Source: Robiginitomaculum sp.
GTDB taxonomy: Bacteria; Pseudomonadota; Alphaproteobacteria; Caulobacterales; Maricaulaceae
Assembly: GCA_026982415.1 (NCBI GenBank)
Contig: JALSHE010000115.1
Location: 1 to 39,406, forward strand
DNA length: 39,406 bases
Direction: 5' to 3'
A model generated the notes under the pieces. That model was not told the DNA's origin. It made no database searches and worked only from the letters and a program-made list of their open reading frames with translations. Both the position numbers and the translations under genes were made by a program. How positions within the stretch are numbered: position 1 is the first letter of the stretch; each line of letters begins with the position of its first letter. This document shows positions 11,329-34,125 of this stretch, piece by piece.

Positions 11329-11332
11329 AGGT

Positions 11333-13672: not shown

Positions 13673-13767
13673 CCGCTCACCCCTGCGGACGCAGGGGTCC
13701 ACCTGTGAACTAATGGGTATCGCCAAGTTATCCTGCTATGGATACCTGCATGCGCAGGTATGAGCGG
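13673..13767. repeat. Cloverleaf-like structured repeat, copy A (before dctQ)
   Basis: The ends CCGCTCA and TGAGCGG pair. Inside are a perfect 8-bp hairpin ACCCCTGC/GCAGGGGT (13679-13698) and a perfect 8-bp hairpin ATACCTGC/GCAGGTAT (13742-13761). Layout and ends match copies at 31635 and 34004, but the stem sequences differ. It separates dctP from dctQ and ends up in the dctQ leader, where it could affect the ratio of binding protein to permease. Confidence 0.8.
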
Positions 13768-13805
13768 TGTATTTGACCAGTTATTTGATGCATAGATTAT
13801 TTTCA

Positions 13806-14942
13806 TCACCTAAGCGCCGCCGCTCTTGCTGCGATATAGGCACCGTCGCTGATTTCTGTCCATGTGCGGTAGTTGTTGCGAGCCTTGATATAGCTTTCAT
13901 AAATTGCGCGGGTAGTTTTGTCGGAATTACCGACCTCGGCGACAGCTTCTTCACTGAATTTTCCTATCTGGTTCCAAATTTCTCTTGAGAACACGCGCGG
14001 TTCAATATTGTGTTTTTCTTTGAGCGTGATCAGGGCATTGGCATTTTCGTGGGTGTATTCACCAATGCTAAGATCATTTGCACTGCGGCCCGCAGCCAAG
14101 AATATGGCTTGGTCAATTGTTGATAAACTGTTCCAGACATCGAGATTAACACCAAGTCCAAGCGCCGCACCAGATTCGTGGAAGCCGGGGCCGTAATAAT
14201 AGGGGGCTTCGCGGTAAAAACCGAAAGCATAATCATTCCATGGCCCGACCCATTCTGTTGCATCTATGGCACCGGATTGTAGGGCTTGGTATATTTCGCC
14301 GCCGGATAGTTTCACCGCCGCCCCGCCGAGCCTGCGAATGACCTCGCCGCCAATGCCGGGTATGCGCATTTTCAGACCCTTGAAATCTTCTAGAGTGTTG
14401 ATTTCTTTTTTGAACCAGCCGCCCATTTGGTGACCAGTATTGCCTGCGTGGAAAGCCTTGATATTAAATTTAGCCGAGAGATTATCCCAAAGCTTCTGAC
14501 CGCCGCCAAAATCTACCCAGGCGGCTATTTCGGTAGCAGTGAAGCCCATAGGTACAGCGGTAAAGAACGAGAAACCCTTGGCCTTGCCTTGCCAATAATA
14601 CTCCGCCGAATGGTACATGTCTGCACCGCCTGTCGATACCGTATCAAAAACTTCGCCTGCACCGACAAGTTCTCCAGCCGAGAAGACTTTAATCTCGATA
14701 CGGCCTTCGCTCATAGTGTTGACAAATTCAGCAAAGCGGTTTGCCATAATACCTAGACCCGGAAAGTCCTTAGGCCACGAGGTGACGAGTCGGAGTTGCC
14801 GACGGTTTTTACTGATGGCAGGCGCACCCGGTACGGCTTGCTCTATGGCTGCAGTTTTTTTCTGCTTACCACCGAGTACAGCCACTGTCGTGGCTCCGGT
14901 TGCCAGTGCGGCAGCGGCAGTTAATATTTCACGTCGTTTCAT
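13806..14942 (-). CDS. dctP: TRAP transporter substrate-binding protein DctP (TakP-like)
   Basis: The 378-aa periplasmic receptor begins MKRREILTAAAALATG, a twin-arginine-style or ordinary signal region. The body has the DctP fold pattern: LVTSWPKDFPGLGIMANRFA, the SAGELVGAGEVFDTVSTGG segment, the signature MRIPGIGGEVIRRLGG, and ATEWVGPWNDYAFGFYREAP. The last is typical of TakP-type receptors that bind 2-oxoacids; that substrate is inferred from family resemblance. It is followed by a structured repeat, then dctQ and dctM on the same strand. It begins 24 bases after bpt ends. Confidence 0.94.
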   Translation of the reverse strand: MKRREILTAAAALATGATTVAVLGGKQKKTAAIEQAVPGAPAISKNRRQLRLVTSWPKDFPGLGIMANRFAEFVNTMSEGRIEIKVFSAGELVGAGEVFDTVSTGGADMYHSAEYYWQGKAKGFSFFTAVPMGFTATEIAAWVDFGGGQKLWDNLSAKFNIKAFHAGNTGHQMGGWFKKEINTLEDFKGLKMRIPGIGGEVIRRLGGAAVKLSGGEIYQALQSGAIDATEWVGPWNDYAFGFYREAPYYYGPGFHESGAALGLGVNLDVWNSLSTIDQAIFLAAGRSANDLSIGEYTHENANALITLKEKHNIEPRVFSREIWNQIGKFSEEAVAEVGNSDKTTRAIYESYIKARNNYRTWTEISDGAYIAARAAALR

Positions 14943-14966
14943 AATCTCCCCATTATGGTGCGTCTT

Positions 14967-15686
14967 TTAATCTACATTACACCAGCCAACTTTGCGTAGA
15001 ACCTGGTGTGGTTTGAACTTAGCTTTGTAGGACATTTTAGGGCTTTGCTCGACCCAATACCCTAAATAAAGAAATGCGAACCCAGCTTGTTTACAGATAT
15101 TGATATGATCCAAAATCATGAAATTACCAAGGCTGCGCTTGGTCTCGTCTATGTCGAAAAAGCTATACACCATAGAAAGCCCGTCGCGGAGGGTGTCGGT
15201 TATGCAACAAGCAATCAGGTGGTCACCTGCATTTCTATATTCAATGATTTCGGTCCGTGATGCACAGTCCTCGACCATCATCTCGTAGCGCTCGAAATCC
15301 ATTTCCGCCATGCCGCCGTCCGGGTGACGGTTGGTCAGGTATCTGTTCAGAAGGTCGAATTGTTCCTCTGTTGCAAAGGCTTCATTGACTGTACGGATAA
15401 GGTTGGCATTATTTTTCAAGGTGCGCCGGAAACTTTTGCCCGGTGTAAATTCAGCCGCTTTTACGCGCAAAGAATGACACGCATGGCATGTCTCACAGGC
15501 CGGGCGGTAAATAACATTTTGCGAGCGACGGAAGCCTGAATGGGTCAGATAATCATTTATATTCGGGCCTTTCAGCGGGTCGAGCGGTGTAAAGATTTTG
15601 CGTTCCATCTCGCCGTCCAAATACGGGCAGGGGGCGGGCAGTGTAATATAAAACTGCAAATCGTTTGGGTCAAAATGGCGGCTCAT
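14967..15686 (-). CDS. bpt: Aspartate/glutamate leucyltransferase (Bpt, bacterial Ate-type)
   Basis: This 239-aa cytoplasmic enzyme moves leucine from tRNA-Leu onto proteins with N-terminal Asp or Glu, marking them for ClpAP through ClpS. Family features are the cysteine-rich YRPACETCHACHSLRV segment (about residues 60-75), FRRSQNVIYRP, the acyltransferase region with ACCITDTLRDGLSMVYSF, and the C-terminal LYLGYWVEQSPKMSYKAKF. Length fits the family. It starts nine bases after the SLC13 gene stop and precedes dctP, so it is likely read in the same transcript although no functional link to transport is evident. Confidence 0.95.
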   Translation of the reverse strand: MSRHFDPNDLQFYITLPAPCPYLDGEMERKIFTPLDPLKGPNINDYLTHSGFRRSQNVIYRPACETCHACHSLRVKAAEFTPGKSFRRTLKNNANLIRTVNEAFATEEQFDLLNRYLTNRHPDGGMAEMDFERYEMMVEDCASRTEIIEYRNAGDHLIACCITDTLRDGLSMVYSFFDIDETKRSLGNFMILDHINICKQAGFAFLYLGYWVEQSPKMSYKAKFKPHQVLRKVGWCNVD

Positions 15687-15695
15687 AAAAACACT

Positions 15696-17525
15696 CTAGC
15701 CAATATTAAACACAAAGGGAAGCAGGACTATATAACTAACCCAGATAATCAAGATGAGCGGAACCCCAAAACGGACATAGTCAATAAATTTATAATGCCC
15801 CGGCCCCATGACCAGTAAATTGGTCTGGTAGGCGATAGGGGTCGCGAACGAACAATTTGCAGCAAACAATACAGTTAAGATAAGGATTTTCGGATCTATT
15901 CCAGTTTGACTTGATACGCTAATGGCAATGGGCGCAAATAGAAGTGCCGTGGCGTTGTTAGACAACAAATTGGTCATTAGTGCAACCAGCAAGAACAGCC
16001 CCGCCAAGAGAACTTGCGGCCCATATCCTTGCAAAACATTCACCACTTGCCCGGCTACATAGCCAGCGCCGCCTGTGGCCTCCAGTGCGATGCCCATAGC
16101 GAAGGCCGCACCGATGAGCATGAAGACTTTGCGGTCAAGCGAACGTATGGCTTGACGCACATTCAAGCATTTTGTGGCTATCATTAAAGCTGCGCCCGTG
16201 AATGCTGCATGGACGATTGGTAGAATACCCGTCGCGGCCAACAGGATAACGCCCGCAAAAATAATCCGCGCGATATTGGCTTTGCGAATATCGGGGAGGT
16301 CTTGGGTTGCCCAGTCGAGCAAAAGAATATCATGGTGGTCGCGCATGGCTTCTATTTGCGGCACATAACCAAATAATAAAAGCACATCACCGGCTTGCAA
16401 ATGGATTTTCAACATACGGTCGCGCATCATGCGCGAACGTCGTTGGATACCAAGCACCAAGCAGCCATGCTCACGCTGGAATCCGGCTTGCTCTATGGTT
16501 TTGCCTATCATTTGCGAGCCGGGTGCAATCACGGCTTCACTAATCACCATACGATCCGTACCGTCCTCTTGTTTAAAACCTGGTGTGGATAACATGCCTT
16601 TGAGATATTCTGGGTAGGCGGAAAGAAGTCCGGTTAAGGCTTTTCGGGTTGCCGCGACGGTTAAAATATCATCTTGCTTGAGGGCGGTTTCAAATGGGGG
16701 AAACAATTGTTTATCGCCGCGCTGTATAGAGCGCACAGTCATCATCCGCAAATCTCGAAACAGGCCTGCGATAGGTTTAGCCCCATTGAGCGGATGGGTT
16801 TCAGTAATGCGGATAGGGGCGATATATTGCCGTCCAGATACAGATTGTGTTCCGGGTGCTGGGCCCCGGTTTGGCAACAGCCATTTTGATGTCAGCACAA
16901 TGTAAATAGCACCGATAGCGGCTAAAATTAGTCCTGGAAATGCCGGGTCGAAAAACGCGACGGTAGCGTCAGTTGAACGTGCGAGGGCGCCTGCTACCAA
17001 AATATTGGTCGAGGAGCCTATAAGCGTTGTCATCCCGGCTAAAATACAGATAAAGCTGAGCGGCATCATGAATTTAGATGCATTCCCGCGCAGTTGCAGT
17101 GCCATAGCTGACAATACAGGAATAAACATCACCACAACCGGCGTATTGTTCATGAACATAGACGTGACGAAAGCTGTGATAAAGACCAATGTCAATGTGC
17201 GTTTTGGGGCTTTGTCTAGGTAAGAATTAAGCTTGCGTGTTGGGGTTTCCAGTGCACCTGTTTCGAAAATACCCTGTCCAATAACCAATAATGCCATGAC
17301 GGTTATCAAAGCCGGGTCGGAAAAACCTGATAACAGTGTACGCGCATCGACCTGCATAGAGCTTTCGCCCATAAATAGTTGAAAAAACAAAAGTAATGCA
17401 GCAATAATGCCGAGGGAAATCAGCTCTATGGAATATTTTTCCAAGGCGTAAAGCACGACCCCGATGATAACAATCCCGAAAACGGCCCACATTTGCCAAC
17501 TGGTTTCTAATATTTGTCCGTCCAT
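15696..17525 (-). CDS. SLC13-family permease with two TrkA-C domains
   Basis: This 609-aa inner-membrane protein has two hydrophobic halves, each with the reentrant loop typical of divalent anion/sodium symporters (NNTPVVVMFIPVL and NLLSNNATALLFAP). They flank a soluble middle containing two RCK_C/TrkA-C domains (about residues 215-300 and 305-390; for example VISEAVIAPGSQMIGKTI). Such proteins import sulfate, dicarboxylates or similar anions, and the TrkA-C domains probably bind a small ligand that gates transport. The exact substrate cannot be told. It heads the minus-strand block with bpt and the TRAP genes. Confidence 0.93.
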   Translation of the reverse strand: MDGQILETSWQMWAVFGIVIIGVVLYALEKYSIELISLGIIAALLLFFQLFMGESSMQVDARTLLSGFSDPALITVMALLVIGQGIFETGALETPTRKLNSYLDKAPKRTLTLVFITAFVTSMFMNNTPVVVMFIPVLSAMALQLRGNASKFMMPLSFICILAGMTTLIGSSTNILVAGALARSTDATVAFFDPAFPGLILAAIGAIYIVLTSKWLLPNRGPAPGTQSVSGRQYIAPIRITETHPLNGAKPIAGLFRDLRMMTVRSIQRGDKQLFPPFETALKQDDILTVAATRKALTGLLSAYPEYLKGMLSTPGFKQEDGTDRMVISEAVIAPGSQMIGKTIEQAGFQREHGCLVLGIQRRSRMMRDRMLKIHLQAGDVLLLFGYVPQIEAMRDHHDILLLDWATQDLPDIRKANIARIIFAGVILLAATGILPIVHAAFTGAALMIATKCLNVRQAIRSLDRKVFMLIGAAFAMGIALEATGGAGYVAGQVVNVLQGYGPQVLLAGLFLLVALMTNLLSNNATALLFAPIAISVSSQTGIDPKILILTVLFAANCSFATPIAYQTNLLVMGPGHYKFIDYVRFGVPLILIIWVSYIVLLPFVFNIG

Positions 17526-17639
17526 ATGCGCTTTCTAGCAGGTAAATAAACGCAATACAGTAAAATTCTCCTTTACGTGAAAGATTATTGGGGCGAAAAC
17601 GATAATTGGCCTTTACAAGGACAATTGAGGGAGAGTTTT

Positions 17640-18497
17640 ATGGCGCAATTAGCATTTTTGGGACTGGGGGTCATGGGATATCCTATGGCCGGGCATTTGG
17701 TGCGTGCGGGGCATGATGTTTGCGTGTGGAACAGGAGTGCGGCTAAATCCAAATCTTGGGTGGCTGAATATGCTGGAGACGCGGCTGATACTATTTCACA
17801 AGCGGTAAGCGCGGCTGATTATGTTATGATGTGTGTGGGCAATGATGATGATGTTTATGCCGTTGCCAAGGCCGCAATTCCATCCATGCAGTCCAGCAGT
17901 ATTTTGGTTGACCACACCACGGCTTCAGCCAAATGCGCCCGACATTGTTACGCCCAAGCCAAGGACGCACATATCGGATTTATAGACGCACCAATTTCGG
18001 GCGGAGAAGCCGGGGCGGTCAACGGCGCTCTGACCATAATGTGCGGCGGTGATGGAGATATTTATGCCCGAGCGGAACCCGTAATGGATGCCTATGCCAA
18101 AGCCGTAAAATTGATGGGGTCGTCCGGTGCAGGCCAACTCACTAAAATGGTCAACCAGATTTGCATTGCGGGCACATTGCAGGGTCTATCAGAAGCCGTG
18201 CATTTTGCCAAGCGTGCCGGACTGGACGTGGACGAAGTGGTGCAGGCTATCGGGCAGGGCGCCGCGCAAAGCTGGCAAATGGACAACCGCGCATCGACCA
18301 TGGGACGAGGCGAGTTCGATTTTGGCTTTGCCGTAGACTGGATGCGTAAAGATTTGAAAATTGCCATAGAGGCCGCAGAAGAGAACGGCGCTAACTTGAC
18401 TATGACTAAAATGGTAGACAAGTATTACGCAGAGGTTCAAGACATGGGCGGCAACCGCTGGGATACGTCTAGCTTACTTAAAAGATTGGAACCATAA
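17640..18497 (+). CDS. NAD(P)-dependent dehydrogenase of the 3-hydroxyisobutyrate dehydrogenase family
   Basis: The 285-aa protein has a Rossmann fold starting AFLGLGVMGYPMAGHL (NAD(P) binding), the substrate-binding signature DAPISGGEAGAVNGAL (about residues 118-133), and the catalytic lysine in GAGQLTKMVNQ. It oxidises or reduces a 3-hydroxyacid such as 3-hydroxyisobutyrate or tartronate semialdehyde; which one is not decidable here. The ATG at 17640 follows GGGAGAG and matches the start of the fold, while the frame opens 21 codons earlier. The stop shares one base with the next ATG (TAATG), so it is coupled to the EEP gene. Confidence 0.93.
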   Translation: MAQLAFLGLGVMGYPMAGHLVRAGHDVCVWNRSAAKSKSWVAEYAGDAADTISQAVSAADYVMMCVGNDDDVYAVAKAAIPSMQSSSILVDHTTASAKCARHCYAQAKDAHIGFIDAPISGGEAGAVNGALTIMCGGDGDIYARAEPVMDAYAKAVKLMGSSGAGQLTKMVNQICIAGTLQGLSEAVHFAKRAGLDVDEVVQAIGQGAAQSWQMDNRASTMGRGEFDFGFAVDWMRKDLKIAIEAAEENGANLTMTKMVDKYYAEVQDMGGNRWDTSSLLKRLEP

Positions 18498-19522
18498 TGC
18501 GCCGTGTTCTGAAGCAACTTTTCCAAATTATCCTGCTACTGGTTTTGCTCGCCGCAGGTATATTAGCGCTTAATTATTTCAATAATGGCCTGAAAAACAA
18601 ATCTGGGGCAGGCGCGGACTTAGCCAATGCGGACGCTGCAATTTCTGTTCTTAACTGGAATATAGGCTATGCGGGGCTTGGTAAAGAATCCGATTTTGTC
18701 ATGGATGGCGGCGAGAACTTATTGCCGCCAAGTATTGAAATCGTTGAAAAAAACTTGGCGGGCATCCAGAAAATTTTACGGGACAATAAATCCGATTTAT
18801 ACCTCATTCAAGAAATTTCAGAGCCAGATATGCTTAATCTCGGGGTTGATGTTTTGGGTGGGGTTCAGCAAGCCTTGTCCGGTACTGACTGGTTTTTCAG
18901 CTATGATTTTCGCACACAATTTATTCCGCGTAGTTCATCATTAAAGCACGGCCTTGCTTCATTTGCATGGATTAAGACACAGCCAGTCACACTTATTCGC
19001 CTACCTAATGAGCCGACTAGGTTGCAAGGTCTAATACAGCGGCAATATCACATACAGGCACGGGAGTTTACGGATGCAAATAGCAATCCATGGGTAGTCA
19101 TGAACATTCACCTATCCGCATTCGACGAGGACGGGAATGTGCGTGTTCGACAATACGAAAAATTATTGGAAATTGCCAGCAAATATTATGCAGACGGCAA
19201 GCGTGTGGTTATTGGTGGGGATTGGAACATGCAATTAACACTGACAGACTTTCCCCACACCACCAAAGAAAAGGATCTATTCTGGCTTAAAATATTGCCA
19301 ACGGAAAGCCTGCCAGCCGATTGGCAAATAGTTGTTGACCCAAGTGTAGCGACTGTTCGCACCAATGAACGCCCCTTTATAAAGGGCGAAAATTACACGA
19401 CGATTATTGACGGCTATCTGGTTTCGCCCAATGTGGAGGTGGTTAGCGTCAAAGGATTAGACACCAATTTCGAATTTACCGATCACCAACCAACATTGGC
19501 AAGATTCAAGAGCCGCCCATAA
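18497..19522 (+). CDS. Membrane-anchored endonuclease/exonuclease/phosphatase-fold hydrolase
   Basis: A single N-terminal membrane helix (about residues 7-27) precedes an EEP domain in this 341-aa protein. Metal and catalytic motifs are visible: LNWNIGYAG, LIQE, GGDWNMQ and the terminal TDHQP, matching the Asn, Glu, Asp-Asn and Asp-His set of the DNase I-like fold. The family includes DNases, phospholipid and sphingomyelin phosphodiesterases, and phosphatases; substrate is unknown. The anchor suggests action at the outer face of the inner membrane. The last 17 bases overlap the convergent nnrU. Confidence 0.88.
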   Translation: MRRVLKQLFQIILLLVLLAAGILALNYFNNGLKNKSGAGADLANADAAISVLNWNIGYAGLGKESDFVMDGGENLLPPSIEIVEKNLAGIQKILRDNKSDLYLIQEISEPDMLNLGVDVLGGVQQALSGTDWFFSYDFRTQFIPRSSSLKHGLASFAWIKTQPVTLIRLPNEPTRLQGLIQRQYHIQAREFTDANSNPWVVMNIHLSAFDEDGNVRVRQYEKLLEIASKYYADGKRVVIGGDWNMQLTLTDFPHTTKEKDLFWLKILPTESLPADWQIVVDPSVATVRTNERPFIKGENYTTIIDGYLVSPNVEVVSVKGLDTNFEFTDHQPTLARFKSRP

Positions 19523-20078
19523 TAGGTACGCCTATTGTCAATTCGTGTAAATGCTTGACAAACAGAACATAAATCGCGGTTCCAATAATAACAGCGTATA
19601 AATCACCAGCGATACTGGCTTTTTTAACGGGTAAATTACGGCTACTCACGGCTATTCTGTCAATGATCACATAGGCCAGAAAACTGCCGAACAAGATCAG
19701 GGAATTAAGCTCGCCGTTGGCTAGCAAATGGCCAAAACTCCACAACATAACCGCAAGAAGCATGGGGTGTTTTATAGTATGTTTAATATAACCGCGCGGT
19801 ACATAGGCGGCCATGAGCAAAATCAGGGCAGGGAGCATCAAAGCCATTGTTACATGCACACCCCAGTCAGGCGGCGTAAAAATTTGCGGGGAGGGTCGCG
19901 CCAATCCATAGCCCCAAAGCATAAGGGCAAAACCAAGCCCGGAGACGAGCGAATATAGCCCCATATATTTCATTGTTCCCATACGTGCGCGGATGTCGCG
20001 TCCGGGCACACGCGTCCGAAAGCTTGAATAAAAATGTGCGGCAAAGAACAAGATGGTTCCGGCAATAAGAAAATACAT
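19506..20078 (-). CDS. nnrU: NnrU-family integral membrane protein
   Basis: The 190-aa protein has about six membrane segments and the NnrU pattern: AAHFYSSFRTRVPGRD, GLYSLVSGLGFALMLWGYGL, and HPMLLAVMLWSFGHLLANGE. NnrU was first noted beside nitric oxide reductase genes, but the family is widespread without them, and no denitrification gene lies here, so a general membrane role is likely. The ATG at 20078 is preferred over 20114 because AAGGGG stands five bases upstream. Its 3' end overlaps the EEP gene. Confidence 0.92.
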   Translation of the reverse strand: MYFLIAGTILFFAAHFYSSFRTRVPGRDIRARMGTMKYMGLYSLVSGLGFALMLWGYGLARPSPQIFTPPDWGVHVTMALMLPALILLMAAYVPRGYIKHTIKHPMLLAVMLWSFGHLLANGELNSLILFGSFLAYVIIDRIAVSSRNLPVKKASIAGDLYAVIIGTAIYVLFVKHLHELTIGVPIMGGS

Positions 20079-20241
20079 AATAACCCCTTTTAATAGTTTC
20101 CGCAATCTGGACAAATGTCGATAATATCTGGTGTCGATAATGTCTGGTCTTGCGCTTAATATGGATTAGTCTATACAACCGCACCCATAACAACAAGTGC
20201 CAGCTTTGCGAAAGCTTGCACGCCAAAGCACGGAAATAAAC

Positions 20242-20616
20242 ATGAAGGCCGACATCATCCTGTCTCGCAGCTTCACATTTGAAGCCGCCCATTCCATTGA
20301 TCTGCCTGACGGTACGGATCCAGGGTATAAGCATTTGCACGGCCATTCATTTAGCGCCAGTTTGTCAGTTAAAGGCCGCCAAGAAGATATTGATAAATGG
20401 CTCATGGATTTTGGTTCCCTAGACCCGGTCATAAAGAAAATCCGCGACAAGCTCGACCATGCCTATTTAAACGACATAGAAGGGTTGAAATACTCAACCT
20501 TGGAAAACCTCTGTACTTATATTTTCAAACTGGCAGAACCCATGGTGCCCGGCCTACATGCAGTGGAAATTTCCCGCCATACATGCGGACAAACCTGTCG
20601 GTTGCAGATAGATTGA
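20242..20616 (+). CDS. 6-pyruvoyl-tetrahydropterin synthase / QueD-like protein with altered active site
   Basis: This 124-aa protein has the PTPS fold signature: the zinc ligands are His17 (FEAAHSI) and the HLHGHSF pair (His33, His35), and the Asp-His pair is in LDHAYLND (Asp72, His73). In E. coli QueD a catalytic cysteine stands four residues before the HGH motif; here that position is Tyr29. The substrate-anchoring Glu of QueD (KETC) aligns with His113 (RHTC). It may be a diverged family member with a different pterin reaction, or an inactive relative. No other queuosine gene is nearby. The start at 20242 follows GGAAA and matches the fold start. Confidence 0.85.
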   Translation: MKADIILSRSFTFEAAHSIDLPDGTDPGYKHLHGHSFSASLSVKGRQEDIDKWLMDFGSLDPVIKKIRDKLDHAYLNDIEGLKYSTLENLCTYIFKLAEPMVPGLHAVEISRHTCGQTCRLQID

Positions 20617-20924
20617 CAGTAGAATTTATATGCCCGCCGATAATACCCCAATAAATTTAGGGGCATTACCGCATAAAGAAACAATAGAATCGATTCACCA
20701 AGAGGTATTCCCTTTGGTCATTGTCACCAGAACCCGACATACTTTTAGTCGGGTTGATTATCGTTTCGCTACCCGTTCCAACACCATAGCTTTCGTTTGC
20801 TCGCGTCCCAGGTGTTTTTGTTTTCTGGCTCTTCAACTTTTTTAGGAAAACGAAATGTGTGTACATTTTTTGATTGTTTGAGAGTTCTACATGAGGACGT
20901 GCAATTCAGACCATTTCCAATGTC
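20617..20924. other. Intergenic region with two weak hairpins, no gene
   Basis: These 308 bases show no convincing coding frame. A hairpin pairs ACCCGAC with GTCGGGT (about 20732-20755) without a T-run. A second, AAATGT/ACATTT at 20853-20868, is followed by Ts and could be a weak terminator for plus-strand transcription. A small RNA is possible but nothing recognisable was found. Confidence 0.4.
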
Positions 20925-21707
20925 TCACCCATCCAACCGTGCCTTAATCGCCAACAAATCCCGCCATGCGTCTTTTTTTAGCTCTGGTCTCCTCAGTAAA
21001 AAAGCTGGGCGGTATAGTGGCATTGCGGGGACAGTCTCGCCGTTTATATCTAGCTCTTGCCAGTTGCCTCTGGTTTTCATAATGCCGGTTTTTCCGGTTA
21101 GGGCTAAGAGGGATATTCCGCCTACTATTATGATTAGTTTGGGGGCTATGAGTTCTATATGGCGGGTTATGAACGGGGCGCACATAGCTAGTTCGTCCTC
21201 AGTCGGATGGCGGTTGCCCGGCGGGCGCCAGTTGCAGACATTTGTTATGTAGAGATTTTCCTCGCTCAAATTGATAGCGGCGAACATTTTGTCCAAGAGT
21301 TGTCCGGCGCGGCCGACAAAGGGTTTGGCGGCTTCGTCCTCGGCGCGGCCCGGTGCTTCGCCTATGACCATGATGTCGGCGTCTGGATTGCCCCGTGCGA
21401 AGACGACATTTCTGGCATGGTCGCTGAGGACGCCTGCGTCGAAACCCTCGATGATGGTTTTTAGGGCTTCAAGCGTAGGGGCGGCTTTTGCCTGTTCGGC
21501 GGCTTTAATGAGTTGTTCGGATGTGTCGATTTCTTGCGGCGCAGGTGTTGATTTGGTTCCAGGGATTTTGCCAGTTTTACGCGCTTTCTTGGCTGCTGAT
21601 GGGGGGGCAACTGGCACTACTGGAATGTCCACGCCCATATCGTCCCACCAAGCATGGCTGGCTTGCAGGGCGGCTTTCAATGCCTGTTCTGTGCTTGGTG
21701 CTGTCAT
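20925..21707 (-). CDS. Uracil-DNA glycosylase family 4-like protein lacking usual key residues
   Basis: Family-4 UDGs remove uracil from DNA and normally bind a [4Fe-4S] cluster through four cysteines. This 260-aa protein has an 80-residue Ala/Lys/Pro-rich N-terminal extension, then motif A GEAPGRAEDE (about 117-126), WRPPGNRHPTEDELAMC, and the motif B region LYRPAFLLRRPE. It contains only two cysteines (158 and 176), so the standard cluster cannot form, and the motif B histidine (HPAxLLR in the family) is Arg233. It may be a repurposed or inactive member. It lies 14 bases after the RimB-RimK fusion gene, same strand. Confidence 0.88.
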   Translation of the reverse strand: MTAPSTEQALKAALQASHAWWDDMGVDIPVVPVAPPSAAKKARKTGKIPGTKSTPAPQEIDTSEQLIKAAEQAKAAPTLEALKTIIEGFDAGVLSDHARNVVFARGNPDADIMVIGEAPGRAEDEAAKPFVGRAGQLLDKMFAAINLSEENLYITNVCNWRPPGNRHPTEDELAMCAPFITRHIELIAPKLIIIVGGISLLALTGKTGIMKTRGNWQELDINGETVPAMPLYRPAFLLRRPELKKDAWRDLLAIKARLDG

Positions 21708-21721
21708 ATTAGTTTGCCATT

Positions 21722-23095: not shown

Positions 23096-23185
23096 ATTTT
23101 CAGTTTCCAAATCTGTGTGAATGCTTTACGCAGTCCGTTGAACCGTTTAACACTTAATAGACTAGAACAGCAATCGGGAAAAAAT

Positions 23186-24838: not shown

Positions 24839-24848
24839 GAAACTGCGA

Positions 24849-26567: not shown

Positions 26568-26571
26568 TTTT

Positions 26572-27447
26572 ATGTCTAAACCCGAAAATTTATTGGTTGA
26601 AACCGCTTGGCGGGAAACGGCGCGGGCGAAAGTAAACCTGACCCTGCATGTGGGTGCGGCGCAAGATAACGGCTACCACCCTTTGCACAGTCTTGTGGTA
26701 TTTGCAGATTTCGGCGATATGCTAGACGGGCAAATCGCCGAGGATTTCAGCCTGAAAATGATCGGGCCATTTGCGGGAGATACGCCGGGGGGGGGTGATA
26801 ACCTTCTCATGACCGCTGCCCGTGTCATTGCCGAGAATAACTATGTTGAAGCGCGCTTGGCCTACAAGCTGAATAAAAAACTGCCCGTCGCGTCCGGCAT
26901 TGGCGGGGGCAGTGCCGATGCGGCGGCGGCGCTACGGCTTTTGTCGCGCGCAGACCATGTGGATTGGTCGGAACATGCGGAAAGCTTTTTGCCGTTTGGC
27001 GCGGATGTGCCCGTGTGTTTTTTGTCGCGCACCTGTATTATGGAGGGGGTAGGCGAGCAAATAATGCCGTGGCCGGGTTTGGGGCAAGTCCCGGCTATTT
27101 TGGTCAATCCGGGCAAGAGCCTCAGTACCAAAGATGTGTTTGACAAATTTGATATTGTCGGTGTTTCTTCAAAATTTTCTCTATCAGCAGGGTCTTTGCT
27201 GGACATGGCCAAGTCTGGACGCAATGATTTACAGGCCATTGCAATTCGTGAACTGCCTGTGATTGAGACTGTAATCGACGAAATTCGCGGACAGGCAGAT
27301 TGCCAATTATCGCGTATGTCCGGTTCAGGTGCAACTTGTTTTGGTCTGTTTTCAAGTCAAGCAAAAGCGAAATTAGCAGCCAAAATCATCAAGAAGTCCC
27401 ATCCGGATTGGTGGGTGGTCGCGACCATGCTCGGGGATATGCCGTGA
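26572..27447 (+). CDS. ispE: 4-diphosphocytidyl-2-C-methyl-D-erythritol kinase
   Basis: IspE phosphorylates CDP-methylerythritol in the MEP route to isoprenoid precursors. The 291-aa GHMP kinase has ARAKVNLTLHVG with NGYHPLHSLV at the N-terminus, the ATP loop LPVASGIGGGSADAAAALR (about residues 103-121), and the C-terminal motif MSGSGATCFGLF. It begins four bases after the TPR gene and shares GTGA with the next gene. Two neighbours use or elongate isoprenoid phosphates (the WecA-like transferase and the polyprenyl synthase), a sensible grouping. Confidence 0.96.
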   Translation: MSKPENLLVETAWRETARAKVNLTLHVGAAQDNGYHPLHSLVVFADFGDMLDGQIAEDFSLKMIGPFAGDTPGGGDNLLMTAARVIAENNYVEARLAYKLNKKLPVASGIGGGSADAAAALRLLSRADHVDWSEHAESFLPFGADVPVCFLSRTCIMEGVGEQIMPWPGLGQVPAILVNPGKSLSTKDVFDKFDIVGVSSKFSLSAGSLLDMAKSGRNDLQAIAIRELPVIETVIDEIRGQADCQLSRMSGSGATCFGLFSSQAKAKLAAKIIKKSHPDWWVVATMLGDMP

Positions 27448-28514
27448 GTTTTGATAGCCCTGTAATGATTATGATCCATGTGGCTGGCTTTGCATTTTTT
27501 GTCTCCGTGGCCATTAGCGGCTTCATGGTATTTGCCGGGCTTTTGGATAGGCCGGGGCAACGCTCCAACCATAGCAAAATTGTCCCAACGGCAGGCGGAG
27601 TCGGCATTGTTGCAGGTTTAGGCGCGGGCATGTTGGCGCTGGCTTTGCTCTATCCGGCTTACGGCAATCAAAACCTGTTGGGATCGTTGGCGGCGCTTGG
27701 TGTGGGTACGGCCTTACTCGGCTTGTTCGACGATATTTTTGATGTGAATTCCAAGGTTAAATTTGGACTGATTGTCTTGTTGGCTAGCGCTAGTGTTTAC
27801 ACGGTCGGCGCACCTGAATTATTCCCCTCAATTGCAGGGGGCGGGCTAAAAATACCCTATTGGCTCGGCTTTTTAGGCGCAGTGTTATGGGTGTTTGTCG
27901 TCACCAATGGGGTGAATTTTATGGACGGTGCCAACGGTTTGATGGCGAGCAGTATGGCACTATCATTTTCGGCGCTATGCTTGATTGCCGTCTTGGTTGG
28001 TGCCAGCGATACGGCGCTGATAAGCCTTATTATGGCCGCAGCTCTGTGCGGGTTTTTACTGTATAATGCAGGTAATCAGGCCAGGATATTTAGCGGCGAT
28101 GTTGGCTCGTTGTTGGTTGGGTTTCTTTTTGCCAGCGCCACATTATTATTGCTCACAGAAGCCCCCGCATTTGGGCTGCTTTATGTGGGGCCATTGCTGA
28201 TATTACCATTCCTCACCGATATTTTACTGACCTTGTTTTTACGGGCGAGAAGGCGGGAAAACCTGCTGGCAGCCCATAGTTCGCATCTCTATCAGCGTAT
28301 GATACGCGCTGGGAAATCCCATGTGTTCATTAGCTGGTTATATGCATTTGCCGCTCTGATTATGGGGGCGGTTACGTTAGGGGCGCTTTGGTACGGTATG
28401 ATAAAATCACTATCGTTTTTGGCCTTATGGGTTTGCGTAATGACGGTGATTTATTTGCTGATACACAAAAAGCTTAGCTCACTCGCGAAACCACAAAGTC
28501 CGCAAGACGAATAA
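27444..28514 (+). CDS. WecA/MraY-like polyprenyl-phosphate sugar-1-phosphate transferase
   Basis: The 356-aa membrane enzyme belongs to the glycosyltransferase-4 family that loads a sugar-1-phosphate onto undecaprenyl phosphate to start surface polysaccharide. About ten membrane segments are seen, with LDRPGQRSNHSKIVPTAGG near the start, the acidic LFDDIFDV, the signature NGVNFMDGANGLMA, GDVGS and the HSSHLYQR motif near the C-terminus. The start is taken as GTG at 27444, whose GTGA overlaps the ispE stop; the long open frame upstream lies inside ispE. The sugar is not determinable. The 3' end overlaps the convergent polyprenyl synthase by 41 bases. Confidence 0.92.
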   Translation: MSFDSPVMIMIHVAGFAFFVSVAISGFMVFAGLLDRPGQRSNHSKIVPTAGGVGIVAGLGAGMLALALLYPAYGNQNLLGSLAALGVGTALLGLFDDIFDVNSKVKFGLIVLLASASVYTVGAPELFPSIAGGGLKIPYWLGFLGAVLWVFVVTNGVNFMDGANGLMASSMALSFSALCLIAVLVGASDTALISLIMAAALCGFLLYNAGNQARIFSGDVGSLLVGFLFASATLLLLTEAPAFGLLYVGPLLILPFLTDILLTLFLRARRRENLLAAHSSHLYQRMIRAGKSHVFISWLYAFAALIMGAVTLGALWYGMIKSLSFLALWVCVMTVIYLLIHKKLSSLAKPQSPQDE

Positions 28515-29508
28515 GCGCGGTTTTCCATTCCCTGTTTTGGGCATCGTCATCAAAAATATCCAGAGCAGACTGCGCGGTTTTGACATGGGCGCGTGCCGCG
28601 TCCAGTGTAGCCTCCAAGGCATTTTCGGATTTCAGGAATGCGGTGGCCACGGCTAAATCATCTTCGCTTTGGTCGTGGTGCGTAATCACACGTTTCCAAA
28701 AAGCGAGGGCAGTGCTATCACCGTTTTTCACGGCATTGGCGTAAGCGATAATAACAGGTAAAGTCATTTTGCCCTCGCGGAAATCATCACCGATAGATTT
28801 ACCGAGAGAGATTTCAAAACCGCCATAATCCAGCGCATCGTCGACCAGTTGAAAGGCTAGGCCCAGCTCTTGGCCGTAGGTGCGCAGGGCCTTTTGTTTT
28901 GCGGCACAACTCCCCGCGAGTACGGGTGATACTTCTGCGGCGGCTGCGAACAATGCGGCGGTTTTCGCACCAATTGTTTGCATATAAGTCTCGACGCTCA
29001 TCTCCACATCGCGCAGTCCTGCCAGTTGCCTAACTTCGCCCTCTGCGATGACGCTGGACGCCGTGGATAAAATCCCGAGGGCTTCCATACTACCCGTCTC
29101 GACCATGAGATTAAATGAGCGGGCGAACAGAAAATCCCCGACCAAAATACTGGGCGCATTGCCCCATATTAAATTGGCGGCTTTCTTGCCCCGCCGTTTG
29201 GCGCTGAGGTCTACCACATCATCGTGCAACAATGTCGCGGAGTGAATGAACTCGACTGCCGCCGCCAGCTTATAATGATTCTCGCCTTTATATCCGCATA
29301 AATGCGCCGCCGCTATGGTCAGGAGAGGTCGCAAGCGTTTGCCGCCCGCTCCGACCAAATGCTCGGCCAAGTCCGGTATCATGCCCACAGGGCTTTGCAT
29401 GCGCTCGCGAATTATCGTATCGACCTTGGCCATATCGTCAGAAGCCAAGGCAAGCAAATGCTCGATGGGGGATAGGTCAGGGGATGTTTTTGTCGCAGTC
29501 AAGCTCAC
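28474..29508 (-). CDS. Long-chain trans-polyprenyl diphosphate synthase (IspB-type)
   Basis: The 344-aa enzyme extends farnesyl or geranyl diphosphate to the C40-C50 tail used for ubiquinone. Both aspartate-rich motifs are present: LHDDVVD (about 95-100, followed by KRRG) and QLVDDALDY (about 237-245), along with GGKRLRP near residue 56. Product length cannot be fixed from sequence; alphaproteobacteria usually make a decaprenyl tail. It is divergent from the DUF2007 gene and convergent with the WecA-like gene. Confidence 0.94.
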   Translation of the reverse strand: MSLTATKTSPDLSPIEHLLALASDDMAKVDTIIRERMQSPVGMIPDLAEHLVGAGGKRLRPLLTIAAAHLCGYKGENHYKLAAAVEFIHSATLLHDDVVDLSAKRRGKKAANLIWGNAPSILVGDFLFARSFNLMVETGSMEALGILSTASSVIAEGEVRQLAGLRDVEMSVETYMQTIGAKTAALFAAAAEVSPVLAGSCAAKQKALRTYGQELGLAFQLVDDALDYGGFEISLGKSIGDDFREGKMTLPVIIAYANAVKNGDSTALAFWKRVITHHDQSEDDLAVATAFLKSENALEATLDAARAHVKTAQSALDIFDDDAQNREWKTALIRLADFVVSRVS

Positions 29509-29600
29509 AATTCTCTCTCATTTTTGCCTTATTTACGCACAGAGTAACACAGCGGCAAGTAAGTATAGTATTTTTATTGTTCTCTTGTTAGAGAAGCCAA

Positions 29601-29825
29601 ATGATAGCTATTATTAAAACCAATAATCCCGTAACGCTGAGCTATGCCCAATCGGTACTCAACGACCACGATATTGGTAGTTTTATCGCTGATGGACATT
29701 CGGGAAGTGCATTGGGTTTTATCGGATTGATCACCAGTCGTTTGATGGTCATTGATGAAGACGTGGCCGAAGCTCGCGAGCTTTTGGCCGCCGCAGGATT
29801 AGAGGACGAGTTTTGCCCTATTTAG
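29601..29825 (+). CDS. DUF2007 small protein
   Basis: This 74-aa protein matches the DUF2007 'signal-transducing' family pattern, with the first strand IAIIKTNNPVTLSYAQSVL and the ending LMVIDEDVAEARELLAAAG. The biochemical role of the family is not established. Its last 13 bases overlap the next gene, and the pairing of this family with a trmN6-type methyltransferase looks like an operon. TAGAGAAG lies before the ATG. Confidence 0.88.
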   Translation: MIAIIKTNNPVTLSYAQSVLNDHDIGSFIADGHSGSALGFIGLITSRLMVIDEDVAEARELLAAAGLEDEFCPI

Positions 29826-30538
29826 ATGTAAAATTCTTTGATGGCCAAGTTGATGTCAAGCAACCAGGCGCGGGCTACCGGGCGGGCACGGATGCTATCT
29901 TGCTGGCCGCAAGTCTGGACGCCAAACCGGGTGCGCATATATTGGAGCTTGGCTGCGGTACGGGCGTGGTCATGCTGCTGGCGCGGCACCATTTGCCAGA
30001 TTGTCGATTTACGGGACTGGAGAAAAGCGCGGACATGTTGGCGCTGTCCCGTGATAACACAGACCATGCTGATAATATAGAAATTGTCGAGGGGAGTATC
30101 CGGCGTATTCCCAAAGACTGGCATTTGCAATTTGATCAGGTCGTCGCCAATCCGCCCTATTTTGATAACCGCCGCGCCGTGCGTATGTCGGGCGCCAAGG
30201 AAAGTGCTTTCGTCAATAAAGGCTTGAGGCTGGACGATTGGATTGCGGCTATGTTGCTGGCGCTGAAACCACGCGGCATAGGCACACTGATTTACCGGGC
30301 GGACGGGCTGGAGAAAATCTGCTCTACGCTTTCTGGCAAAGCCGGGCGCTTGCGCATTCAACCCATACATTCTTACGCCGACACATCTGCAAAACGCATT
30401 ATCGTGCAGTTTCGCAAAAGCGTCAAAAGCGAGAGCGCTTTGCTACCAGCCCTCATAATGCACGAACGCGGCACGGACGAAAAATATGCACCAGTTGCAG
30501 AGCAAATACTCACTGGCAAGGGAAGGCTAATTTTGTAG
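29813..30538 (+). CDS. tRNA1(Val) adenine-37 N6-methyltransferase-like protein (TrmN6)
   Basis: A 241-aa class I methyltransferase with motif I ELGCGTG (about residues 45-51) and catalytic NPPY (113-116), preceded by the GYRAGTDAILLAAS signature of the YfiC/TrmN6 group, which methylates A37 of tRNA-Val. The start is a TTG at 29813 inside the DUF2007 gene with AGAGGA about eight bases upstream; no later ATG keeps the conserved N-terminus. The last codons and the stop TAG fall in the repeat element that begins here, so the C-terminus ends in repeat-derived sequence. Confidence 0.92.
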   Translation: MPYLDVKFFDGQVDVKQPGAGYRAGTDAILLAASLDAKPGAHILELGCGTGVVMLLARHHLPDCRFTGLEKSADMLALSRDNTDHADNIEIVEGSIRRIPKDWHLQFDQVVANPPYFDNRRAVRMSGAKESAFVNKGLRLDDWIAAMLLALKPRGIGTLIYRADGLEKICSTLSGKAGRLRIQPIHSYADTSAKRIIVQFRKSVKSESALLPALIMHERGTDEKYAPVAEQILTGKGRLIL

Positions 30539-30619
30539 GGTGGATTAGCGCCTTTGCGCGTAATCCACCATTGGCAATCACCTCATGGTGGATTACGCAA
30601 AGACGCTAATCCACCCTAC
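30529..30619. repeat. REP-like palindromic repeat, inverted pair of units
   Basis: Two copies of the unit seen at 11333 face each other: one from GTAGGGTGGATTAGCG to TAATCCACCAT and a second from ATGGTGGATTACGC to CTAATCCACCCTAC (30535-30619), with 13 bases between. The whole can fold into one long hairpin. It lies between trmN6 and glyQ and includes the trmN6 stop codon. The remaining 97 bases to glyQ show no clear feature beyond an AT-rich promoter-like stretch. Confidence 0.9.
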
Positions 30620-30716
30620 GGGACTACAGGGTCGATTTAGTCATAATCACAACTTGATTTTAACAAGTCCACTCCATAGGTTCCGCCATTATAGACTATA
30701 GCTATTAGAGATTCTC

Positions 30717-31613
30717 ATGGGTTCAAAGCCTTTATCATTCCAAGACCTCATCCTAACCCTGCAACACTATTGGGCAAAGCAAGGCTGCGCTATTCTCCAG
30801 CCTTATGATATGGAGGTCGGGGCAGGGACTTTGCACCCCGCAACCACTTTGCGCTCGCTTGGGCCAAAGCCGTGGAATGTTGCCTATGTGCAGCCGTCCC
30901 GCCGCCCGGCAGATGGCCGCTACGGCGAGAACCCGAACCGCTTGCAACACTATTATCAGTTTCAGGTATTGCTCAAACCCAACCCGCCCAACATTCAGGA
31001 TTTATATCTGGGTAGTCTTGAGGCCATTGGTATTGATATGGACCTCCACGACATCCGTTTTGTGGAAGATGATTGGGAAAACCCGACCGTGGGTGCCTGG
31101 GGGCTGGGCTGGGAAGTGTGGTGCGACGGTATGGAGGTTAGCCAATTTACCTATTTCCAACAAGTCGGCGGCCTTGATGTGGAACTGGTATCGGGCGAAT
31201 TAACTTACGGCCTAGAACGCTTGGCCATGTATGTGCAGGGCGTCGATAATGTTTATGATTTGGCTTATAATGATGCCAAGGGAAAAGATGCTGTATCTTA
31301 CGGTGATGTGTTTCACCAAAATGAGGTCGAGCAATCCAAATTCAATTTTGAACACGCCAATGTAGAGCGCTTGGAAAGCTGGTTCAAAACTGCCGAAGAA
31401 CAGTGCCAAGCTTTGCTGGAACTAGACCCGCCATTGCCACTCCCCGCCTATGAACACGCCCTTAAAGCCGGGCATTGCTTTAACCTTTTGGATGCACGCG
31501 GCGTAATTTCGCCGACGGACAGAGCGCGGTACATAAAAGCCGTGCGCGATTTGTCTAAGGGTTGCGCCGAAGCTTGGGTCGCAACCGAAGCAAAAAGAGC
31601 GGAGGCGGGGTGA
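30717..31613 (+). CDS. glyQ: Glycyl-tRNA synthetase alpha subunit
   Basis: GlyQ is the catalytic subunit of the bacterial alpha2-beta2 glycyl-tRNA synthetase. The 298-aa sequence is typical throughout: [58 protein letters not shown], and the class II motif regions around YQFQVLLKP and [13 protein letters not shown]-like [12 protein letters not shown]. It is followed by a structured repeat and then glyS. Confidence 0.98.
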
Positions 31614-31634
31614 TGTGGAATAATATTTTAATTT

Positions 31635-31737
31635 CCGCTCATTCCCGCGAAAGCGGGAATCCAGTTTCTTGCAAGAATGTGCGAGCTTTGCCCGCTCTTT
31701 ATGCGCTGGATACCGTGTCGTGGCACGGTATGAGCGG
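31635..31737. repeat. Cloverleaf-like structured repeat, copy B (between glyQ and glyS)
   Basis: Outer ends CCGCTCAT and ATGAGCGG pair, and ATCCAG pairs with CTGGAT further in. Three inner hairpins are ATTCCCGC-GAAA-GCGGGAAT (31641-31660), GCGAGC/GCCCGC with one mismatch, and TACCGTG/CACGGTA. It sits between the two subunit genes of one enzyme, and the glyS ribosome site AGAGGA starts right after it. Confidence 0.85.
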
Positions 31738-31755
31738 ATTGAGAGGATTAGTGTA

Positions 31756-33804
31756 ATGTCTGAACTCCTATTAGAAATCCTATGCGAGGAAATACCGGCG
31801 CGGATGCAGGTTAAGGCGGGGGCGGATTTGGCGCGTCTGCTGGGCGCGGCATTGACCAAGGCCGGACTTAGTGTTGACAATGTGCGCAGTTTCACAGGCC
31901 CGCGCCGTTTGGTGTTTGTGGCCGATGTGCCAGCACGAAGCCCCGATGTAAGCGAAGAACGCAAAGGCCCGCGCGTCGGTGCGCCGGAGCAAGCGCTGGC
32001 AGGGTTTATGCGCGGGGCGGGGCTGTCTGATATATCCCAAGCCGAGACCCGTAGCGATAAAAAGGGCGCGTATTATGTGGCCGTTTTGGAAAAACCTGGC
32101 AGGGATGCGGGTGCTATAATCGCCGAGGCCGTACCCGAAATTATGGGCAAATTCCCATGGCCGAAATCTATGAAATCGGGGGCTACCACATTCCGCTGGG
32201 TGCGGCCTTTGACTTCAATCCTGTGTGTGCTGGACGGTAAAGTCGTGCCATTTAGTGTTGGCGGTATCGACAGTGGCAATATCACCCACGGTCACCGCCG
32301 TATGGGCCCAGGGCCGTTTTCTGTGACCAGTTTCAAGGCCTATAGACAAACGCTGGAAAGCAAAGGCCATGTGATTTTGGATGCTTGCGAGCGTAAAGAG
32401 ATTATCTTGCGAGATGCCCAAAAAGTCTGCGCCGATGCGGGGCTGGTATTGGTCGAGGACGAAGGTCTGCTGGCCGAAGTCGCAGGCTTGGCCGAATGGC
32501 CGACGGTTCTTTTGGGCGATATGGACGCGGCGTTTCTCGAACTGCCTGCGGAGGTCATTCAGCTGTCCATGCGCACCCACCAGAAATATTTTGCGGTCAA
32601 TGATAAGCAAGGAAACCTAGCCGCAAAATTCGTTGTCGTCGCCAACCAAGTGGCACCGGACGGCGGTATAGAAATCGCCAAAGGCAATGCGCGGGTATTA
32701 TCAGCCAGACTAGACGATGCCCGTTTCTTCCAAGCCGAAGATGTAAGGGACGGCAAGAAACTCATAGATAATTACGACAAATTAGACGGCGTAATTTTCC
32801 ACCAAAAACTGGGCACGATAAAAGACAAGTGTGAGCGCGTCGCGGCCTTGGCCAGAGAACTCGCCCCCAAAGTCGGCGCAGACCCAGAAAAGTGCGAACG
32901 AGCGGCTAAACTCGCCAAATGCGATTTGGTGACAAATATGGTGGTAGAATTTACCAGTCTTCAAGGCAAAATTGGGCGGCTAATGTACGAAAAAGAGGGC
33001 GGTGATAAGGACATAGCCCAAGCCATAGAAGACCATTACAAACCCCAAGGCCCCTCAGACCGCGTGCCAACAAACCCGGTCGCCGTAGCCGTGGCACTAG
33101 CCGACAAATTAGACACGCTCGTAGGCTTCTGGGCCATAGACGAAAAACCAACAGGCAGCAAAGACCCATATGCGCTCAGACGGGCGGCGCTTGGGGTTGT
33201 TAGGATTATATTGGAGAATGGAGTTAGGTTAAACTTGATTCCTTTGTTCATTATTCAGCAACGGGAATTTCCGAATATTCATGCTAGGGTTATGAACCTC
33301 CTCGCTTTCATCCTAGACCGCCTAAAAGTCCACCTGCGCGAACAAGGCATATCTCACGACCACATAGATGCGGTGTTCGCGCTGGGCGGAGACGATCTTG
33401 TCGATATTACCAACCGGGTGAAAGCATTAGGCGCATTCCTCTCCACCGATGATGGGGTGAACCTTTTGGCTGGCTATAAACGGGCGGCGAATATTTTGAA
33501 GGCTGAAGCTAAAAAGGGTGACTTGCCGGAGGTGGAGCCGCACGCTGGTACATTGCCCCAAGAAGCTGCTTTGTTTAGCGCTCTTGAAACCGCCGAACCT
33601 TTGATAGAGAAAGCTCTCGCATCCGAAGATTATGCCGGGGCTATGACGGCGTTGGCCGGATTGCGGGCGCCTATTGACGGATTTTTTGAGGATGTGATTG
33701 TTAATTCTGATGTGGCGTCTGAGCGCGAAAATAGGTTGGGGCTGCTCATAAAAATCCGTAACCTCGCGGGGCAGGTTGCAGATTTTGATAGGGTTGAGGG
33801 TTGA
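31756..33804 (+). CDS. glyS: Glycyl-tRNA synthetase beta subunit
   Basis: The 682-aa beta subunit binds tRNA-Gly and is needed for activity with GlyQ. The N-terminus LLLEILCEEIPARMQ and the body features FTGPRRLVF, KGPRVGAPEQALAGFMRG, MRTHQKYFAVND and DARFFQAEDV are family hallmarks; an anticodon-binding domain with HD-like helices occupies the last third. The ATG at 31756 follows AGAGGA; the 29 in-frame codons before it are translated repeat DNA and are discounted. Confidence 0.97.
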   Translation: MSELLLEILCEEIPARMQVKAGADLARLLGAALTKAGLSVDNVRSFTGPRRLVFVADVPARSPDVSEERKGPRVGAPEQALAGFMRGAGLSDISQAETRSDKKGAYYVAVLEKPGRDAGAIIAEAVPEIMGKFPWPKSMKSGATTFRWVRPLTSILCVLDGKVVPFSVGGIDSGNITHGHRRMGPGPFSVTSFKAYRQTLESKGHVILDACERKEIILRDAQKVCADAGLVLVEDEGLLAEVAGLAEWPTVLLGDMDAAFLELPAEVIQLSMRTHQKYFAVNDKQGNLAAKFVVVANQVAPDGGIEIAKGNARVLSARLDDARFFQAEDVRDGKKLIDNYDKLDGVIFHQKLGTIKDKCERVAALARELAPKVGADPEKCERAAKLAKCDLVTNMVVEFTSLQGKIGRLMYEKEGGDKDIAQAIEDHYKPQGPSDRVPTNPVAVAVALADKLDTLVGFWAIDEKPTGSKDPYALRRAALGVVRIILENGVRLNLIPLFIIQQREFPNIHARVMNLLAFILDRLKVHLREQGISHDHIDAVFALGGDDLVDITNRVKALGAFLSTDDGVNLLAGYKRAANILKAEAKKGDLPEVEPHAGTLPQEAALFSALETAEPLIEKALASEDYAGAMTALAGLRAPIDGFFEDVIVNSDVASERENRLGLLIKIRNLAGQVADFDRVEG

Positions 33805-33833
33805 TATTTTGACGCATCACATAGACATTCAAG

Positions 33834-33967
33834 CCCCTCACCGCGCTGTCGCGCACCTCTCCCCAAGGGAGAGGTTAAGGGAAACCCGCGCTGACAATGT
33901 TTTTGGAAAAACGAAGATAGATGAGGCAACGTCTCCTCTCCCATGGGGAGAGGAACAAGGTGAGGGG
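33834..33967. repeat. Long palindromic repeat with two CCTCTCCC hairpins
   Basis: CCCCTCACC (33834-33842) pairs with GGTGAGGGG (33959-33967). Inside, two hairpins share stem CCTCTCCC/GGGAGAGG (33856-33874 and 33935-33953), and a small GCGC/GCGC hairpin sits near the left end. This is a different family from the cloverleaf element that follows it. No gene lies in 33805-34125. Confidence 0.8.
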
Positions 33968-34003
33968 GTAAGTTGTATTGGGTTTCACACAGCACTCTCA
34001 ATC

Positions 34004-34105
34004 CCGCTCATTCCGGCGAAAGCCGGAATCCAGTTTAAACAGGAATGTGCGAGCTTTGCTCGCTCTTTATTCGCTGGATACCCAGTCGTGGCCGGGTATG
34101 AGCGG
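34004..34105. repeat. Cloverleaf-like structured repeat, copy C (before ppdK)
   Basis: Same ends and order as copy B: CCGCTCAT/ATGAGCGG outside; hairpin ATTCCGGC-GAAA-GCCGGAAT; a perfect GCGAGC-TTT-GCTCGC hairpin; and TACCC/GGGTA. Against copy B the first hairpin has a C to G change matched by G to C on the other arm, so the pairing is kept. The ppdK ribosome site AGAGGA follows nine bases after the element. Confidence 0.85.
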
Positions 34106-34125
34106 ATTATTTAGAGGACAAACAC

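Follow-up and report, generated by a model that had tools for sequence, protein, structure and literature searches.

A CCGCTC-tagged intergenic repeat in Robiginitomaculum: probable inverted-dimer REPs related to the CGTC superfamily

Three structured repeats lie between genes in the window (the whole 39,406-nucleotide stretch of Robiginitomaculum sp. contig JALSHE010000115.1 that was analysed), and all three are very probably dispersed, non-autonomous copies of an inverted-dimer REP element, a lineage variant of the CGTC superfamily that carries the tag CCGCTC. The whole explanation, which joins this identity to an action at the level of DNA, is probable. The structure is real and well kept, and it comes with a signature in the flanking sequence that is unexplained and worth following up. 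A role for the three copies as dedicated control switches of the adjoining genes is not supported. The copies are as follows:

13673..13767, minus strand: copy A, subtype II, 95 bp, an inverted REP dimer between dctP and dctQ
31635..31737, plus strand: copy B, subtype I, 103 bp, middle hairpin present, between glyQ and glyS
34004..34105, plus strand: copy C, subtype I, 102 bp, between glyS and ppdK

Copy A is flanked by the end of the dctP stop codon at 13806 and the dctQ ATG at 13663 (both genes on the minus strand), B by the end of glyQ at 31613 and the glyS ATG at 31756, and C by the end of glyS at 33804 and the ppdK ATG at 34126. Pfam matches support these gene names: DctQ, DctM and DctP around A, the glycyl-tRNA synthetase alpha and beta subunits around B, and the beta subunit and pyruvate phosphate dikinase around C. 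The first-pass annotation of this DNA placed the copies in leaders just upstream of dctQ, glyS and ppdK, which is incomplete: A and B sit inside same-strand gene pairs (dctP-dctQ and glyQ-glyS), and all three follow a stop codon, at 38 nt (A), 21 nt (B) and 199 nt (C). The coordinates, ends and arms that it gave agree with the sequence letter by letter. Matches to CCGCTCA-N60..90-TGAGCGG number three in the window against 0.01 expected from shuffles, and copy A scores 43.7 bits with one covariance model (R1) and 86.2 bits with another (R2). RNA folds of all three copies are strong on both strands (z-scores of -5.2 to -5.8 against shuffles), but for C on the plus strand and A on the minus strand the minimum-energy fold is a single long hairpin, with which the cloverleaf competes.

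Each copy is an inverted pair of REP units of about 30 bp, and each unit consists of the tag CCGCTC, an 8-bp stem, a loop of 4-6 nt and the tail CCA. The parts of copy B are:

31635..31664, plus strand: left REP unit of B (tag CCGCTC, stem ATTCCCGC/GCGGGAAT, loop GAAA, tail CCAG)
31681..31695, plus strand: middle hairpin of B, lying in the spacer and typical of subtype I (GCGAGC-TTT-GCCCGC, with one mismatch here)
31706..31737, minus strand: right REP unit of B, inverted (tail CTGG, stem ATACCGTG/CACGGTAT, tag GAGCGG)

Stems are mostly 8-9 bp and usually start with AT, and loops are mostly 4-5 nt; the exceptions are the right-hand hairpin of subtype II, which starts with AC, and the right-hand loop of subtype I, which is 6 nt if a G-U pair at its neck is left uncounted. 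All 29 own-genome copies aligned keep the CCA that follows the left stem, and it can pair with TGG in the partner unit. Copies examined are inverted dimers with tags outward and tails inward (the search models themselves require dimers), an arrangement that would correspond to “HH” as the text of the REP survey uses the term (PMC3733652). Subtype I, to which B and C belong, is about 100 bp long with tails CCAG/CTGG and the extra middle hairpin (most commonly GCGAGC-TTT-GCTCGC). Subtype II, represented by A, is 72-95 bp long with tails CCAT/TGGA, and typically one of its arm pairs is ATACCTGC/GCAGGTAT and the other ACCCCTGC/GCAGGGGT. Copy A is inverted relative to the usual drawing. Because A differs from B and C in both subtype and orientation, its hairpin 1 matches their hairpin 3, and an earlier comparison of hairpin 1 across the three copies had set different hairpins together.

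The family is far from confined to the window. Searching with B at the DNA level gave 17 places in the organism's own genome (2.73 Mb, 122 contigs) at E below 1e-4, and a covariance model built from 14 of these, the genome-wide search that the first-pass annotation had called for, raised this to 36 distinct places including A (150 of 973 candidates scored). Two of the 36, on C30 and C31, are contig-end repeats of the C16 copy, equal to it in sequence and flank; together with two damaged places (C96 and C3 524-630) they were left out of a set of 141 copies used for most comparisons. The set comprises 32 copies from the own genome, 29 best-per-genome loci and 80 top-listed hits, and it is biased towards good pairing, the 80 hits being drawn from the best ~150 of a longer list. 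The family was matched at E 1e-4 in 44 of 61 genomes of relatives, including the own genome and all 14 of the genus; class-wide it was matched in 42 of 193 genomes, again with the own genome included; by GlyS comparison the window is close to Robiginitomaculum and Hellea genomes. The tag CCGCTC (last four letters GCTC) is present in nearly all own-genome copies and at 53 of 58 ends across genus, family and order (29 loci, one per genome). Outside the order, the identical model, which was built on CCGCTC copies, found 28 new loci with CGTC or TGTC at 50 of 56 ends, CCGCTC at four (in two genomes of one genus) and other letters at two. That a single model finds CCGCTC within the order and CGTC/TGTC outside it argues for one CGTC superfamily whose tag was altered mainly in this order.

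Some copies in the set depart from the standard layout. Four of the 141 carry an insert of about 27 bp in the loop of one hairpin (L046 at C50c 1926-2037, L052 at C34, L031 at C1b, and L290). The insert takes one of two forms, CCCTCTTGGAAGTGCCCTTGGGGTGCG or TGCGACCGCAGGAAGTCCCTCTTGGGG, and may be a nested repeat that enters hairpin loops. Two others (L009, the C52 copy, and L049, the C4 copy) have lost the right end at an identical point, after which both continue with TGCCCTAAAGGATAAA, and this suggests that they either share a truncation or are joined at that point to another element.

Compensatory change in the stems is real. In an alignment of 29 own-genome copies (A2, three insert-bearing copies excluded), 95.2% of cells are paired and 99 cells differ on both sides of the pair, where shuffles give 31.1; sliding the alignment lowers pairing to 28-39%. 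The middle hairpin behaves in the same way, with 96.4% pairing and 8 double-change cells against 1.9 (14 copies). These cells count sequences rather than events, and two of the five covariation measures for the 29-copy alignment do not rise above shuffles (double-change pairs, 10 against 8.5; pair types, 24 against 24.7). Summed over the per-pair table, the two arm helices hold 87 cells that are double-changed and paired, 8 that are one-sided and paired, and 13 that are unpaired. The earlier claim that pairing is kept despite sequence change is thus confirmed, and arm changes that break pairing no less often than they preserve it, the pattern named in advance as its refutation, were not what the table contained. 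Upkeep of pairing is not immediate, however: in 19 pairs of alike elements at the same junction in two genomes (pairs that are not independent), the 303 stem positions include 18 double changes with pairing and 15 changes of other kinds.

The copies have a distinct place among genes. Neighbouring genes of the 141 copies are tandem in 90 cases, convergent in 28 and divergent in five, with one side uncalled in 18, while ordinary gaps in the own genome (20-400 nt, from 439 kb) are tandem in 117, convergent in 27 and divergent in 45 of 189. Divergent gaps are therefore rarer at elements (5/123) than ordinarily (45/189; p 1e-6), with the qualification that the ORF callers used for elements and gaps were crude and unlike each other, and that some of the five “divergent” cases are doubtful. 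Where a gene ends at an element, the median distance to its stop codon is 30 nt (159 sides).

At the corresponding junctions of relatives, B and C are mostly missing. Copy B was found at the glyQ-glyS junction of none of 15 relatives read (in one, G007, the two genes overlap as ATGA), and C at the glyS-ppdK junction of one of 15 (G007); the remaining relatives have nothing or other sequence in their place. B and C are thus not conserved leaders. Among the 141 copies there are 46 between-genome pairs, in 19 junction groups, that have both flanking regions in common: the elements are alike in 19 of these pairs, unlike in 23 and intermediate in four. Replacement of one subtype by another in place was suspected and then weakened, since the immediate flanks of the unlike pairs exceed background in just 5 of 23, which makes separate insertions into one gap as likely as replacement. 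Either process may have been at work. The best case for replacement is L054, of subtype I, and L290, of subtype II and carrying a nested insert; the two have a common left flank. The junctions around glyS also hold other material. A further repeat-like stretch (CCTCTCCC...GGGAGAGG, GGTGAGGGG) occupies 33850-33970 of the window, between glyS and C, and stretches similar to it fill the glyQ-glyS gap in G011 and G002, so that the glyQ-glyS and glyS-ppdK junctions gather mixed repeats. In G005 the glyQ-glyS gap (L188 989-1504) contains a small DUF559 gene (Pfam PF04480, E 1e-34; also REase_MTES_1575), and stretches resembling it by eye occur in L197 and L190; the gene indicates that this junction takes foreign inserts of several kinds.

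Do the copies act as RNA or as DNA? Structured mRNA elements (a 3′-end stabiliser, a processing site or an attenuator) with a selected RNA fold would explain the strong covariation in three hairpins and the likely transcribed placement, with its few divergent-gene sites. The authors of the REP survey favour RNA roles, and its text reads the frequency of GT pairs in the stems of REPs as pointing to a function in RNA (PMC3733652). One orientation relative to transcription is also somewhat commoner, at 25 sense to 15 antisense for subtype I and 12 to 5 for subtype II, but both orientations occur. Selection on RNA should spare G-U over A-C mismatches, and the count on the transcribed strand gives no such excess. 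In the two outer stems of the 90 tandem-gene copies, oriented by transcription, there are 1386 Watson-Crick pairs, 9 G-U, 11 A-C and 3 others, whereas the acceptor and T stems of 30 tRNAs from the same genome have 334 Watson-Crick pairs, 24 G-U and 2 A-C (54, 4 and 1, with 4 others, in a first, smaller tRNA set). The G-U/A-C ratio differs between element and tRNAs at p 7e-4, in a test that comprises 20 element mismatches from mostly top-scoring copies, with hairpins under the score threshold skipped. Pairing therefore looks equally kept on both strands, that is, at the level of DNA, and the G-U count for the CCGCTC family disagrees with the GT-pair argument as the survey's text presents it (PMC3733652). 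An Rfam search of the window at the gathering threshold matched a tRNA alone and no regulatory RNA family, and B and C are missing at most relatives' junctions. Selection on an RNA fold is accordingly unlikely, and of the two options in the first-pass annotation, a regulatory leader or a mobile-DNA substrate, the latter is the better half: the leader half goes unsupported both by the near-absence of B and C at relatives' junctions and by the lack of a G-U excess. The same comparison of junctions bears on old, fixed repeats that are immobile and decay or convert in place. The 19 alike pairs fit such repeats, as they imply that some copies persist over genus-level time (which function would also fit), but B is missing in all 15 relatives read and half of the shared-junction pairs (23/46) hold unlike elements, which makes a fixed origin quite unlikely. 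More generally, intergenic palindromes of bacteria can covary strongly without this proving that a functional RNA is made; here the count of G-U against A-C on the transcribed strand set the family apart from tRNAs.

If the copies are mobile, what moves them? Transposition of the IS200/IS605 type is not expected to leave a target duplication, and none of 2-11 bp rose above shuffled level at 29 copies. This would suit a REPIN moved by a RAYT (a Y1 tyrosine transposase) in the manner of GTAG repeats, as would the inverted dimers of small palindromes and the single Y1 gene in the genome, and a linked REP-associated transposase had been proposed as a thing to look for. That one Y1 match (C120), however, lies between copies of another repeat, GTAGGGTGGATTAG, and the element is absent from the flanks (up to 1.5 kb) of all 23 Y1 loci in the own genome and relatives. 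Y1 matches occur in 17 of 61 genomes (own included), as against 44 of 61 for the element, and four genomes rated 100% complete (G002, G005, G026 and G052) lack any Y1 match and have 43-56 hits of the element, counted over both strands. On these grounds the proposed RAYT link was rejected, and a RAYT-moved REPIN is highly improbable. A MITE, derived by deletion from an insertion sequence of the DDE type whose terminal inverted repeats are CCGCTCA, would account for the short terminal repeats, the size of about 100 bp and the many copies; the missing target duplication counts against it, as do the subterminal palindromes, which vary yet stay paired. Such behaviour is unusual for MITE ends. IS110 (PF01548), which has no match in the own genome and matches in 18 of 61, was rejected as a general mobiliser, and a MITE is on the whole very unlikely. 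A search for empty sites with the joined flanks of the 141 copies gave none in 2.06 Mb. With no empty site, no target duplication and no enzyme, mobility is deduced from distribution.

The repeat beside the Y1 gene is a separate system. A GTAG-type repeat, GTAGGGTGGATTAGC...GCTAATCCACCCTAC, stands on both sides of the RAYT-like Y1 match (around C120 6868-7200, L028), and the GTAGGGTGGATTAG repeat also occurs in the window, at 11329-11358 and 30524-30619. A GTAG-type REP system coexists with the CCGCTC family in this genome.

The flanks of the CCGCTC family carry a signature of their own: the first 11 nt outward from either end are nearly free of C. In the window it is seen at:

31738..31748, plus strand: right outward collar of B, 11 nt without C
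34106..34116, plus strand: right outward collar of C, 11 nt without C

C is missing altogether from 53 of the 64 sides in the own genome and from 135 of the 167 in the genus. For comparison, ordinary stop codons are followed by such a stretch in 39 of 381 cases, and the GTAG repeat is bordered by one in 5 of 33. The collar is weaker outside the genus (6/12 in the family, 13/38 in the order and 8/50 in a class sample); its consensus is roughly GGTGTnGGGG, with a G peak at +7 to +9. A Shine-Dalgarno origin was rejected because the collar is the same at gene-end sides (158) and gene-start sides (104). The flanks were also tried and rejected as a single palindromic target (offset complementarity 144 against 155 shuffled), and their duplex energy is slightly stronger in cis (-12.38 against -11.69, sd 0.30). 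It may belong to the element, or it may reflect a preferred kind of target. A C-free collar outside both ends is apparently new relative to the text of the REP survey, in which insertion inside palindromes is described for a few species and a collar of this kind was not found (PMC3733652).

Putting these observations together, we infer that the unit acts as DNA. Its hairpins, folded in single-stranded DNA, would serve as the substrate, and copies would be moved or converted in trans by a putative enzyme. Their arms would be complementary for the reason that copies derive from pairing-competent copies, and template switching during replication of a short palindrome could rewrite one arm from the other; replication template switching is described as yielding multibase compensatory change (PMC8794818). 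Together, template switching and pairing-competent source copies would produce compensatory changes without selection on RNA. This DNA-level account of how arm pairing is kept up is tentative, its chances being somewhat short of even. Effects on glyS, ppdK or dctQ mRNA would be a by-product of tolerated insertion sites. A more speculative proposal, and a rather unlikely one, is that the unit extends beyond the known REP dimer. The collar of 11 nt, which on each strand is free of G at the 5′ side and free of C at the 3′ side, would be part of the unit or a mark of its target, and a symmetric, non-Y1 DNA recognition system would move or exchange the hairpins at favoured intergenic sites, in which one subtype could take the place of another. 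If true, the family would offer a route to the missing mobiliser of CGTC REPs.

How does the family compare with known systems? Literature searches by topic found no description of it, and searches by its end strings found none by title among the matches listed. GTAG REPs and REPINs are likewise intergenic, inverted pairs of short palindromes, but they have a GTAG tag and a linked RAYT, and the CCGCTC family has neither. The dRS3 repeats of Neisseria have the core palindrome ATTCCC...GGGAAT, and the CCGCTC family has a core of this kind; dRS3 differs in its tag and is found mostly in large clusters in Neisseria, a different class of Proteobacteria. Nearer by taxonomy is C. crescentus, which belongs to the same order as the source organism. 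In the text of the survey by Di Nocera, De Gregorio and Rocco (2013, PMC3733652), C. crescentus is named as CGTC-positive and dRS3 is placed in CGTC-1; the CGTC REPs are described there as mostly alphaproteobacterial, with no dedicated transposase reported. As far as that text goes, the features in common with the CCGCTC family are many: an 8-9 bp stem that nearly always starts with AT, a short loop (4-5 nt) and a CCA tail; heterodimers and conserved or structured spacers; an intergenic position by the 3′ ends of convergent or unidirectional genes; and independence of a linked transposase, observed here at 23 Y1 loci. Inverted dimers predominate among the CGTC REPs, and the copies examined here, drawn from models that require dimers, have that arrangement. 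The family differs in its tag, CCGCTC instead of CGTC, TGTC or CCTC (a comparison with the survey's text; its Figure 2 consensuses may include a CCGCTC family), in the G-free/C-free collars at both ends and in the middle spacer hairpin of subtype I. Taken strictly, the tag therefore places it outside the superfamily's definition. Repeats of the CGTC type occur widely among alphaproteobacteria; with its tens of copies, sharp tag and flank signature, the present family opens the question of their mobiliser to testing.
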